Origin: Thermosipho affectus
Lineage (GTDB): Bacteria > Thermotogota > Thermotogae > Thermotogales > Fervidobacteriaceae
Assembly: GCF_001990485.1 (NCBI RefSeq)
Contig: NZ_LBFC01000003.1
Span: 1-64,000 of the forward strand
DNA: 64,000 nucleotides
Direction: 5' to 3'
The notes beneath the pieces were generated by a model. The model made no database searches. It was given only the letters and a program-made list of their open reading frames with translations, and was not told the origin of the DNA. The position numbers and the translations under genes were made by a program. Below, piece after piece: positions 44,834 through 50,012 of the stretch (the stretch's first letter is position 1; every line of letters starts with the position of its first letter).

Positions 44834-45472
44834 TTATCCAATATCTTTTTTAATCTGTCTATAACCGTTTAAATACTTATTTCTCAGTATAACCGCGTCT
44901 TCATAACTAATTGTCGAAAAATTTCCAATATTCAAAGTATATAAATATATTTCAGCTGTCTTTTCACAAACTAAGCTTGCAGTCAATGCTTCATCAATAT
45001 CAAAACCTACTGTAATTAGCCCGTGGTTTTTTAATATAACTGCATTGTTATCAGAAAGAGCATCTACAACATTTTTTGCAAGTTCAATACTTCCAGGAAG
45101 AGCGTATTCTGAAACTTTAATTTCTGGTCCTAAAATCATAACTGCATCTTCTATCAATGGGGGTATTTCACTTGATACTACTGAAACAGTGGTCGAAAAC
45201 ACAGGATGCGTATGGACTATTGCATTAACATCTTTGCGATTCTTATAAATTTCCAAATGCGTCGGAAGTTCTGAGGAAGGTTTCAAACCATCAATCAAAC
45301 GCCCATTAAAATCAACAACACTTATCATTTCTTCTTTCAACTTATCATACGGTATACCTGATGGCGTTATATAAACATAATCTTTATCCCTAATTGAAAC
45401 ATTTCCCCAAGTTCCTTTAACTAATCCATTTTCCACAATAAATCTAACAGCTCTTAATATCTCTTCTTTCAT
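44834..45472 (-). CDS. Class II aldolase/adducin family protein
   Basis: 212 residues, with the zinc-binding VHTHP and KNHG motifs and an N-terminal GTWGNVSIRD. It is related to L-fuculose-phosphate aldolase, L-ribulose-5-phosphate 4-epimerase and methylthioribulose-phosphate dehydratase. It probably acts on a sugar phosphate, but no other gene of those pathways is nearby. The ATG overlaps the stop of the small helical gene upstream (ATGA). Confidence 0.82.
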   Translation of the reverse strand: MKEEILRAVRFIVENGLVKGTWGNVSIRDKDYVYITPSGIPYDKLKEEMISVVDFNGRLIDGLKPSSELPTHLEIYKNRKDVNAIVHTHPVFSTTVSVVSSEIPPLIEDAVMILGPEIKVSEYALPGSIELAKNVVDALSDNNAVILKNHGLITVGFDIDEALTASLVCEKTAEIYLYTLNIGNFSTISYEDAVILRNKYLNGYRQIKKDIG

Positions 45473-45771
45473 CCTTTTCCTTTAAACCTCCCACCTTCAT
45501 TTTCTAAGCCAAAGATATTACCATACCCTTTCAAGGCTTTTTCGCCAGCTTTTAAATCTTTGGCTTGAACTTTTAATTTATCTATAATTTTTTTTATCTT
45601 TTTCTTTCGTATTTGATCCTTTTCATAAATCAATTTTAACACTTCTTTTGGAAGTTTAGAATTTATAAATTTTTCACGTTCATCAAGTAACTTATTTAAC
45701 AATTCAAAATCTTCTTTTTCAATACACTCATCTATCTTTCTTTCTAAATCTAGTAACTTTTCAAATTCCAA
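45469..45771 (-). CDS. Small helical protein of unknown function
   Basis: 100 residues, almost entirely predicted helix (two long charged helices about 1-70) with a glycine-rich tail (GYGNIFGLENEGGRFKGKG). The layout recalls flagellar export chaperones of the FlgN/FliT type, but I cannot confirm it. The TTG at 45771 has GGGAGGT at correct spacing. It overlaps the AcpS-FolK gene upstream by 22 bases and the aldolase gene downstream by four. Confidence 0.6.
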   Translation of the reverse strand: MEFEKLLDLERKIDECIEKEDFELLNKLLDEREKFINSKLPKEVLKLIYEKDQIRKKKIKKIIDKLKVQAKDLKAGEKALKGYGNIFGLENEGGRFKGKG

Positions 45772-46565
45772 TGTATTACCTCCCAATCTTTTTCAAAACT
45801 ATCCGCAAAAGACTTCATCGAAATATTTGCTACGGGATGTTTGAAATTTTCCAATATCTCTGCCATAGGAACCACAAAAAAACTTCTTTTTTCAAAATCA
45901 TAATGTGGAACTTTCAAATTTTCCATATCAACAACCAAATTACCGTAAAACAAGATATCAATATCTATGATCCTTGGGCCCCATTTTATCGTCCTTTTTC
46001 TTCCCATATTATTTTCTATCTTCAATAACTTATTCAAAAGCTTCAATGGCGATAAATCTGTATCAATTTCCACAACAATATTGTAAAAATCATCTTGCTC
46101 TGTATATCCATAAGGCTTTGTAACATAAATGCTTGATACTTTTAATATCTTTAAATTTCTTTTTTCCAGTAAAGTCAAAGCATCTATTAAATTCCTTTCC
46201 TTGTCTCCTATATTTGTTCCCAATCCTAAAAAAACTTTCCCAAATTGACGTTCCAAAATAACAGTGGAAAAGGCAAATGTATCATGCGATAATGATATGT
46301 GACAAAAATTAAATCCTCCAAAATCTTTGTGAAAAATAACATAAGGTTTTCCACGTTTATTGTTCAAGATTGAAATATCTTTAAAAGAATTACCGTCAAT
46401 TCCTGTCCCAAGGGCCTTAAAAAAAGATTCCTTTAGAGAAAAACGCCCAGCTATATATTGGGCGTTTAATTTTTCTTTCTTTTCTATTTCAGTTAAAACT
46501 CTATTTGCTACCTTCTCTGAAACACGCTTAATATTAACAATATCTGTACCTAATCCAATAATCAA
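45750..46565 (-). CDS. Fused holo-ACP synthase and HPPK (AcpS-FolK)
   Basis: 271 residues with two enzyme domains. Residues 1 to about 107 form a compact AcpS (GLGTDIVNIKRV; AGRFSLKESFFKALGTG; GKPY; ISLSHD), which attaches phosphopantetheine to acyl carrier protein. Residues about 109-271 form HPPK/FolK (GLGTNIGDKERNL; KPYGYTEQDDFYN; KWGPRIIDIDILFYG), which pyrophosphorylates hydroxymethyl-dihydropterin in folate synthesis. There is no stop or frameshift between them. The TTG start overlaps the carboxyltransferase stop by four bases, with GGAGGTT upstream. No other folate genes are adjacent. Confidence 0.85.
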   Translation of the reverse strand: MIIGLGTDIVNIKRVSEKVANRVLTEIEKKEKLNAQYIAGRFSLKESFFKALGTGIDGNSFKDISILNNKRGKPYVIFHKDFGGFNFCHISLSHDTFAFSTVILERQFGKVFLGLGTNIGDKERNLIDALTLLEKRNLKILKVSSIYVTKPYGYTEQDDFYNIVVEIDTDLSPLKLLNKLLKIENNMGRKRTIKWGPRIIDIDILFYGNLVVDMENLKVPHYDFEKRSFFVVPMAEILENFKHPVANISMKSFADSFEKDWEVIHWNLKSY

Positions 46566-47938
46566 ATGGGATAACCTCCTTCATATTCATCCACCAACGC
46601 AAAATCAACGCGTATTTTTTCCTCATATTTTTCCCTAAGATATTTTCTTCCAACTTCACCTAAAATTGCATAAATCAACAAATATTCGTCTGTATCAGCT
46701 AATATCCCTATTTCTCTCTTCAATTTTTCTAACTCAGGTTCAAGTAAATCTGCCGGTCTACAATCTATAGGTTTTTCATCACCTAAAATTTTTTCCATTA
46801 ATTCTTTATCAATTGGGGCAGGAGGTCTTCCATACATTCCTTTCACATAATTCTTCACTTCATTTGTAACCTTTTTATACCTTTCGCCAGATAAAACATT
46901 TAGGACTGCCTGTACTCCAACAATTTGACTAGTTGGAGTAACAAGTGGAGGATATCCTAAATCCTTCCTCACTCTGGGTATTTCGTCTAAAACATCTTGA
47001 AGCTTATGTAACATCTTTTGTTCTGAAAGTTGTTTTACCAAATTTGAATACATTCCACCTGGAACTTGTGAAACTAAGATCCTATAGTCTATACTTTTCA
47101 TCATTACATCATATTCTTTGTATTTTTCTCGTATCTTTGTAAAATATTCCACAAGATAAGCTATACTTTCCCAGTTTATCTCAGGAATATTTCTATATTC
47201 TCTAACTGCATAATACATCGATTCAAATGGTGGTTGAGCGGTTCCAGATGCAAAAGGTGATAAAGCGGTATCCAAAATATCAACACCAGCTTCAACTGCT
47301 GAAATGTAATTTAAATCTCCCAATCCAGATGTACAATGTGTGTGTAATTCAACTGGTACATTAAATCTTTCTTTTAATGTTTTTACCAATTCAAAACTTT
47401 TTTTTGGAGTTAACAACCCCGCCATATCTTTTATACACAAAGAATGCACACCACGTTCAACTAATTTCTGTGCAAAGGAAATATAATATTCAGTTGTGTG
47501 AACAGGACTTATCGTGTAGGAAATAGCTCCTTGCACATGGGCCCCGTTTGTCAAAGCCACCTCTATACTTTTTTCAAGATTTCTTATATCATTCAACGCA
47601 TCGAAAATCCTTATTTTGTCCACACCATTTTCAATCGCTTTTTTTACAAACAATTCAACTACATCATCGGCATAATGCCTATACCCAACTAAATTCTGCC
47701 CTCTAAGCAACATCTGAGTTTTTGTGTTTTTTAATTTAGACTTAATTGTTCTGATGCGCTCCCATGGATCCTCTTTTAAAAATCTTACACATACATCAAA
47801 AGTTGCGCCACCCCAAACTTCCATAGCATTAAATCCCAAAGAATCCATGGATTCCAATGCAGGAATCATATCAATTGTTCTCATTCTAGTTGCAATTAAA
47901 GACTGATGACCATCCCTTAGTGTGGTATCTACAAACAT
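46562..47938 (-). CDS. Biotin-dependent carboxyltransferase subunit (oxaloacetate/pyruvate type)
   Basis: 458 residues. The HMGL-like TIM barrel opens with DTTLRDGHQSLIATRMRT, and a conserved carboxyltransferase domain includes HTHCTSGLGDLNYISAVEAG and QVPGGMYSNL. It matches the alpha subunit of oxaloacetate decarboxylase, PycB and the 5S subunit of transcarboxylase. It ends before any biotinyl domain, so the biotin carrier is a separate protein. It moves CO2 between oxaloacetate/pyruvate and biotin. It lies one base downstream of infB; the ATG at 47938 follows GGAGAGG. Confidence 0.88.
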   Translation of the reverse strand: MFVDTTLRDGHQSLIATRMRTIDMIPALESMDSLGFNAMEVWGGATFDVCVRFLKEDPWERIRTIKSKLKNTKTQMLLRGQNLVGYRHYADDVVELFVKKAIENGVDKIRIFDALNDIRNLEKSIEVALTNGAHVQGAISYTISPVHTTEYYISFAQKLVERGVHSLCIKDMAGLLTPKKSFELVKTLKERFNVPVELHTHCTSGLGDLNYISAVEAGVDILDTALSPFASGTAQPPFESMYYAVREYRNIPEINWESIAYLVEYFTKIREKYKEYDVMMKSIDYRILVSQVPGGMYSNLVKQLSEQKMLHKLQDVLDEIPRVRKDLGYPPLVTPTSQIVGVQAVLNVLSGERYKKVTNEVKNYVKGMYGRPPAPIDKELMEKILGDEKPIDCRPADLLEPELEKLKREIGILADTDEYLLIYAILGEVGRKYLREKYEEKIRVDFALVDEYEGGYPI

Positions 47939-47939
47939 A

Positions 47940-50012
47940 TTATTCCTCTCCTTTTTCATTTTCAAAATTAAGTTTTCTAGAAACTTTCTTTAACATTACA
48001 AACTCTAGTTCATCACCTTCTTTGATATCATCAAAATTTTCCAATTTAATACCACACTCTTGAGGTGCTTCTACTTTCTTAACATCTTGTTGGTAATGTT
48101 TTAGCGATTCTATCTTTCCCTCGTAAATTAACTTTCCCTCTCTATACAACTTGACCATTCCATTTCTTTCAACAAATCCTTCAAGCATTTGTACACCTGC
48201 AATACTTCCAACTTTCTTTATCTTAAAAACTTTTTTAACTTCTCCCCTACCTGTTATTTCTTCTACTTCTTCAGGTTCAAGCATTCCCTCAAGAGCTGCT
48301 TTTAAATCTTCTATCAATTTGTAAACTATTGAGTAAGTTTTTATTTGAATACCTTCGGCTTCTGCCATTTTTCTGGCTTTGCCGTCTGCTTTTACTCTAA
48401 ATCCTAAAATTATCGCATCAGAAGCCGTAGCAAGCATAACATCACTACTTGTAATTGCACCTACACCAGAATGAATTATATTAATTTTAATCTCCTCACT
48501 CTGCAACTTATTAATCGCGCCCTTTAATGCTATCATAGAGCCCTGTGTATCAGCTTTTAAAATCAACTTTAATTCTTTCTTTTCCGATTCTTCCATCATC
48601 TTTAATATTTCTTCTAACTTCATATGTCTTTTTCTCTTTAACTCCTTTTGTTCCTGTTCTGCTATTTTTCCTGTAATTTCCCTTGCCTTCTCCAAACTTT
48701 TTACGGTATAAACTACTCCGTGGGAATTTGGTAACTCTTCAAAACCTACGACCATAACAGGAGTTGAAGGGCCAGCTTCCTTTATTCTTTGACCTTTATC
48801 ATTTACCAATGCTTTAACTTTTCCCATAACTTTTCCCGAAATTACATAGTCGCCCACTTTCAATTTTCCATCTTTAATAATTACATTTGCAACGGGCCCA
48901 AATCCTCTATCAAGTTTTGTTTCGATTATCACAGCTCTCACAGGACCATTTGGAAGTCCCTTTATCTCTTGCATTTCCGCAACTAATAAAATCATCTCAA
49001 GTAATGTGTCTACATTTTGACCTTTTTTTGCGGAAATGGGAACAACTATGGTATCCCCACCCCATTCTTCTGGTATTAAGTTCAATTTATTTACAAGTTC
49101 TTGTTTTGTTTTTTCTACATTGGCATTTGGTTTATCTATCTTGTTAATTGCAACAATTATGGGCACATTAGCAGATTTTGCGTGGTTATATGCTTCAACA
49201 GTTTGAGGCATAACACCATCATCAGCTGCAACAACGAGAACTGCTATATCCGTTGCTTGGGCACCTCTTGCGCGCATTTCTGTAAAAATTTCGTGCCCTG
49301 GAGTATCTATAAAAGTGATAATTTTCCCATTTGTTTCCACTTGATATGCACCTATACTTTGTGTTATCCCCCCTTCTTCTCTTTCAGCCACCCTAGTTTT
49401 TCTTATAAAATCCAAAAGAGTTGTTTTACCATGATCAACGTGACCCATTACAGTAACAATAGGAGGTCTTTCTACTAAGTCCTTTCCTTCGGAATATTTT
49501 TGCTCAAAATATCTTTCAATTTCTTCCAACGGATTTTCTCTAACTTCTTCTTTTTCTTCTACATCAAAGGATATTTTCGCATCATACATCTTTGCTATCT
49601 TTTTTGCAAGTTGCAAGTTCAAAGTTTGCCCAGGCTTTAGAACTTCACCTTTCATAAAAAAATCTTGTATTATTCTATTTTGAGGAACCCCTATTTTTTT
49701 GGAAAATTTATCTAATTTCAAATCTTCTTCATTAAGTTTAATTATATCCTTCTTTTTCTTTGTTATCTCCTCTTTTTCCACACTCTCTTTTTTCTTTCTT
49801 TTTACTTTTTCCTCTTCATCATCAAGAAGCTCATACTCTTCATAAATTAATTCTTCTTCTCCGTACATTTCAAGCAATAAATTTACCGTTTCCTCATCAA
49901 TATAACTCATATGGCTTTTTATTTCAATACCTAAATCAGCCAATTCCTTCATTAAATCTCTCGTATCCATTTCAAGCTGTCTTGCAAGCTCATATACTCT
50001 TAATCGAGCCAT
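47940..50012 (-). CDS. infB: Translation initiation factor IF-2
   Basis: 690 residues. An N-terminal IF2N helical domain (1-50), a charged linker (about 55-90) and a second IF2N (about 90-140) precede the GTPase with GHVDHGKT (P-loop), DTPGHE and NKIDKP, then domains II-IV with the C-terminal initiator-tRNA binding part. Standard factor for 30S initiation. It is followed without a gap by metabolic genes rather than the usual rbfA/truB. Confidence 0.97.

Follow-up and report, generated by a model that had tools for sequence, protein, structure and literature searches.

The window (the whole stretch of DNA analysed, 64,000 nucleotides) contains a gene in which holo-ACP synthase (AcpS) is naturally fused, in one frame, to the folate enzyme HPPK (FolK), and the same fusion recurs in two families of the order Thermotogales, intact in 30 related thermophilic bacteria. 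The N-terminal AcpS would move 4′-phosphopantetheine from CoA to acyl carrier protein, and the C-terminal HPPK, joined to it via a fixed 4-residue linker, would pyrophosphorylate 6-hydroxymethyl-7,8-dihydropterin with ATP for folate, so that the cell would depend on this one protein for both activities. In a third family of the order, AcpS carries a short C-terminal tail that resembles the core of the fused HPPK. The explanation as a whole, in which a bifunctional fusion was ancestral to the order and had its HPPK half pruned in that third family, is given a probability of about two in three.

The fusion is encoded in a single uninterrupted frame with 0 internal stops, preceded by a strong Shine-Dalgarno sequence, and its start codon shares the letters TTGA with the stop of the upstream carboxylase subunit gene, the TGA of which overlaps the TTG (Table 1). 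The Pfam family ACPS (PF01648) matches residues 4-95 (E 5.4e-15; 55.8 bits against a curated cut-off of 25) and the Pfam family HPPK (PF01288) matches residues 112-238 (E 1.6e-38; 132.1 bits against a curated cut-off of 25.7). The NCBIfam models TIGR00516 (acpS) and TIGR01498 (folK) score the fusion protein at 66.2 and 144, respectively, with cut-offs of 59.8 and 54.1. A sequence-only reading of the window had proposed a natural fusion of this kind, with AcpS in the first ~107 residues and HPPK thereafter; the domains of both collections bear this out. The same reading had called for a search for separate acpS or folK genes elsewhere in the genome, and none was found: besides the fused halves, which are the sole matches, the assembly (1.77 Mb, 27 contigs, 99.83% complete) contains no second HPPK and no other 4′-phosphopantetheinyl transferase of the AcpS/Sfp superfamily.

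Table 1. Coordinates in the window of the fusion gene, its parts and the adjoining genes.
Feature	Position	Strand	Details
acpS-folK fusion gene	45750..46565	(-)	271 aa + stop; TTG start, GGAGG Shine-Dalgarno
AcpS half	46245..46565	(-)	residues 1-107; Mg-site D8 + E46; K45, K50, H94 invariant
Linker E-R-Q-F-G	46239..46253	(-)	residues 105-109; pattern E[KRE]xxG
HPPK (FolK) half	45753..46241	(-)	residues 109-271
Upstream gene, oxaloacetate/pyruvate carboxylase B-type subunit	46562..47965	(-)	HMGL-like + PYC_OADA
Downstream gene, small helical protein (~100 aa)	45469..45771	(-)	likely start TTG 45771, GGGAGG site

AcpS and HPPK were located in each of 103 genomes of the phylum. They form one frame in 20/20 genomes of the window's own family (f1) and in 10 of the 11 genomes of a second family (f2), the sole exception being a 71%-complete assembly in which neither gene is present. 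Every f1 and f2 genome that yielded the genes has them fused, with no split or lone acpS or folK. A third family (f3) and eight families further removed either encode AcpS and HPPK separately or have no HPPK. The solved chain 5XUM has the same sequence as one AcpS of f3, and Thermotoga maritima, used as a control genome, gave matches for both the ACPS and the HPPK families; f1 is therefore probably the Fervidobacteriaceae (Thermosipho and Fervidobacterium), f2 the Pseudothermotoga group and f3 the Thermotogaceae. A scan of contigs of named genomes, which detects close relatives only and from which genomes very near that of the window may be missing, returned as relatives only the standalone HPPKs of Macrococcus, Aquicultor and Gordonia, and the viral contigs scanned gave no match. 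A sequencing or assembly error joining two genes, which the sequence-only reading had raised against its own proposal, is ruled out to the point of near certainty by the presence of the same fusion in 30 genomes of two families, 11 of which are assembled as a single contig.

That the protein has both activities can be inferred from several observations: its catalytic residues do not vary, both halves are under purifying selection, the genome holds the other folate genes and it has no alternative copy of either enzyme. The AcpS residue D8 is invariant in 29/29 fusions covering the position, and K45, E46, K50 and H94 are invariant in 30/30. The HPPK residues N118, N162, E184, R189, R191, W195, R198, D201, D203, H221 and R227 are likewise invariant (30/30 fusions); they are equivalent to N10, N55, E77, R82, R84, W89, R92, D95, D97, H115 and R121 of the E. 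coli enzyme. In close pairs, dN/dS is about 0.06-0.27 in both halves, indicating purifying selection, and the length of the linker is constant in all 30 fusions and in the 13 AcpS tails of f3. A structure model built from the single sequence had a pLDDT of 39. When 10 HPPK relatives were added, only the HPPK half was modelled well, the AcpS half being unreliable (pLDDT <50). The modelled HPPK half (residues 107-218) matches solved HPPKs with a Z of 15.0 and an rmsd of 2.4 over 110 residues, the remaining model being of low confidence. Because the sites are invariant, both halves are under selection, the linker is fixed and a folate route is present, the fusion is, as judged from sequence, most likely a working bifunctional enzyme. 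Given that AcpS in general forms homotrimers, with active sites where the subunits meet, it is plausible that three HPPK domains would be displayed on an AcpS trimer.

The genome also encodes FolE2 (E 9.4e-97), PTPS (E 5.4e-40; CExxHGH motif) and FolP (E 2.9e-87), so that HPPK would have both a source of substrate and a consumer of its product. None of the 45 genomes of the order has FolB. The only PTPS-family enzyme of the window's genome (L162, G000:C22:41435-41779) is the likely FolB bypass; its CExxHGH motif is that described for a PTPS-I/III hybrid that can act in folate as well as queuosine synthesis (PMC5041015). Two observations concern other f1 genomes. In genus g4 (G081-G084), FolP is the only pterin-binding protein found and the MetH-type pterin domain seems to be missing. 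Genome G083 encodes, besides FolE2, a full-length type IA FolE (C10:25664-26149; E 1e-46) with a second PTPS nearby. The folate genes of f3 are of two kinds. In genera g12 and g13 the genes for PTPS, FolE2, FolP and a free-standing FolK are clustered (L164, G090:C1:38300-41200), whereas in f1 and f2 they are scattered; the cluster may have been re-acquired by transfer. Genera g10, g11 and g14 (e.g., L103, L105 and L113) have a MetH-type pterin domain only, with no FolE2, PTPS, FolP or FolK, and de novo folate synthesis appears to have been lost in them.

The AcpS proteins of f3 differ in length both from the fusions and from the AcpS of other families. The number of residues after the His of the SHD/SHE motif is 16-20 in the other families measured, about 160-185 in the fusions and 69-88 in f3; this length comparison gave no sign of an AcpS shortening specific to the fusion. 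The f3 tail of ~55 residues opens with the fusion's own junction, E[KR]xxG followed by a hydrophobic strand, as in VVLEKTEGGIFIRG of f3 and VVLEKTTGGIYIGIGSN of f2. Aligned to the HPPK core with MAFFT, the tail matches, in order, strand 1, part of helix 1, strands 2 and 3, helix 2 and strand 4, with FEVLERS paired with IKILKVSS in strand 2, EIETSLPPF with EIDTDLSPF in strand 3 and LVRYGNIL with DILFYGNLV in strand 4. These elements presumably occupy the corresponding places in the ferredoxin-like topology of HPPK. The tail lacks the TKPYG..QxxFxN region that binds the pterin, the catalytic loop RxRxxKWGPRxIDID and all that follows strand 4, PHYDxxxR included.

Profile comparison of the f3 tail with the fused HPPKs gave a P of 5e-5 and a score of 30.6, which was reached by 0/1000 column shuffles (maximum 23.9), and the reversed profile gave a P of 0.51. 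When genera were taken as subsets, g12 with g13 and g11 alone were both clear (0/300 shuffles each), and g14 (0/300, only just) and g10 (2/300) were both marginal on their own. The similarity is too low for Pfam to detect, and the hhalign probability is only about 64-85%. The locus is also shared, as the downstream neighbour of acpS in f3 is the same small-protein gene as in f1 and f2. Together, these comparisons strongly suggest that the f3 tail is a relic of the fused HPPK core minus its active-site loops. The tail is retained in g10, g11 and g14 despite the missing folate pathway. No assigned origin was found for the extra tail of 5XUM; this chain is not among the listed fold matches of the structure model, a list filled by HPPKs that has no bearing on the tail.

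Under the favoured history, which is also the simplest, the fusion would have originated once, before f1, f2 and f3 separated. In f3, HPPK would next have become superfluous or lost its use, and its loops for substrate and metal would have disappeared. What remained would be a scaffold of ~55 residues, still attached to AcpS and kept because AcpS by then relied on it. That a dead scaffold is retained suggests that the HPPK-derived core may now help AcpS to fold, assemble or stay stable, which could explain why the fusion never split. The odds are about even for this account in its specific form, namely that a fusion ancestral to the Thermotogales had its HPPK turned into a structural part of AcpS and that Thermotoga-type members, which can dispense with the fused HPPK, lost the catalytic loops and kept the core fold.

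Trees of infB, HPPK and AcpS give no firm branching order for f1, f2 and f3. A clade of the two fused families is rejected in none of them (AU p of 0.31 for infB, 0.41 for HPPK and 0.23 for AcpS), a result compatible with a fusion that arose in a shared ancestor of f1 and f2 alone, in which case the f3 tail would be an unrelated extension; that the tail has no match in Pfam also fits such a history. Such a late origin is nonetheless unlikely, because the tail matches the fused HPPK far above shuffles, begins with precisely the junction of the fusions, has its core elements in the same order as they do, and belongs to an AcpS encoded in the same locus beside the same downstream gene. Furthermore, its comparison with standalone HPPKs gave a P of 0.03, hence the likeness is to the fused form. 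In the best infB and AcpS trees, parts of f3 group closer to f1 or f2; such a placement would speak for the ancestral fusion, but support is weak.

Why the two enzymes are joined is a separate question, and no metabolic reason is apparent in the sequence. The fixed linker and the retention of a core stripped of its loops suggest that AcpS may rely structurally on the HPPK core, and speak less for channelling. Neutral linkage, in which independent domains share a chain with no gain, would fit the lack of an obvious common substrate or product of the two reactions, as well as the flanking genes (oadA, aldolase and mutase); no folate or lipid gene lies in the co-directional run around the fusion. 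It is nevertheless rather unlikely, given that the length of the linker is unchanged in 30 sequences, that the genes are neither split nor single in any f1 or f2 genome that yielded them, and that f3 keeps its tail without HPPK function; its likelihood overlaps with those of the historical readings, which are thus not shares of one whole. A coupling through substrates or nucleotides, by which the linkage would tune folate and CoA/ACP metabolism together, is suggested by pathway knowledge only. PanB, in pantothenate synthesis, uses 5,10-methylene-tetrahydrofolate and hence needs folate one-carbon units, and AcpS releases 3′,5′-ADP, an adenine nucleotide that could bind HPPK. This coupling is improbable: the sequence holds no evidence for it, the AcpS and HPPK steps are not adjacent and the f3 relic is devoid of a nucleotide site.

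With AcpS-type synthases (PF01648, TIGR00516; nearest solved chain 5XUM), the fusion shares the full domain, the Asp/Glu metal site and the KE and SHD motifs, and it is also the sole phosphopantetheinyl transferase of its genome. Unlike the AcpS of the other families measured, which end shortly after the His, it adds a whole second enzyme C-terminally. With HPPK/FolK (PF01288, TIGR01498; structure Z about 15), it shares all canonical ATP, Mg and pterin residues, but its HPPK is neither free-standing nor joined to a folate enzyme, the partner being AcpS. Both partners are already known from other composite proteins, HPPK joined to enzymes of adjacent folate steps and AcpS domains as parts of fatty-acid synthases. 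HPPK-DHPS (7mpy, 2bmb, 4pzv, 3mcm) and the DHNA-HPPK of Streptococcus (2cg8) likewise combine HPPK with another enzyme in one chain; their partners catalyse a neighbouring folate step, whereas the partner here belongs to lipid/ACP metabolism. The fungal fatty-acid synthase (7bc4, 7q5s) likewise holds an AcpS-like domain within a larger polypeptide, but in that case it is joined to the ACP pathway itself. The tailed AcpS of f3 (5XUM; PRK14661/NF011255) has the same junction and locus as the fusion and a tail alignable to the HPPK core, but it is devoid of the HPPK active-site loops and is accompanied by a separate folK or by no folate pathway. What distinguishes the present case is that the fused enzymes come from unlinked pathways, that their fusion is conserved and that it has a probable pruned derivative. 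To the sequence-only reading, the pair was not a known bifunctional enzyme. No paper on AcpS-HPPK was found in the open-access literature, the coverage of which is incomplete, so that this speaks only weakly for novelty.

Fused enzymes usually catalyse neighbouring steps within a single pathway, whereas AcpS-FolK joins unlinked pathways and is fixed across two bacterial families. The apparent loop-stripped relic on a solved protein, 5XUM, offers a testable case of an enzyme domain becoming a structural scaffold. If this is true, an enzyme domain would have turned into a structural part with both the intact and the pruned states preserved. The fusion is also a warning that fusion-based (“Rosetta stone”) inference of functional links can mislead.

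The fusion lies in a co-directional run that comprises IF-2, the carboxylase subunit, the fusion, the small protein, a class II aldolase, a methylmalonyl-CoA mutase-like protein, PdxS, PdxT and DisA. The carboxylase subunit gene adjoins the fusion in both f1 and f2. The gene of the small helical protein, which has no significant Pfam family, overlaps the 3′ end of the fusion and is kept beside acpS in f1, f2 and f3, with no copy detected in f3 genus g14 or f1 genus g4. In one f1 genome (G071), for which the contamination estimate is 3%, there are two full-length IF-2 genes (infB), at C1:1868357-1870378 and C1:1625575-1627617.
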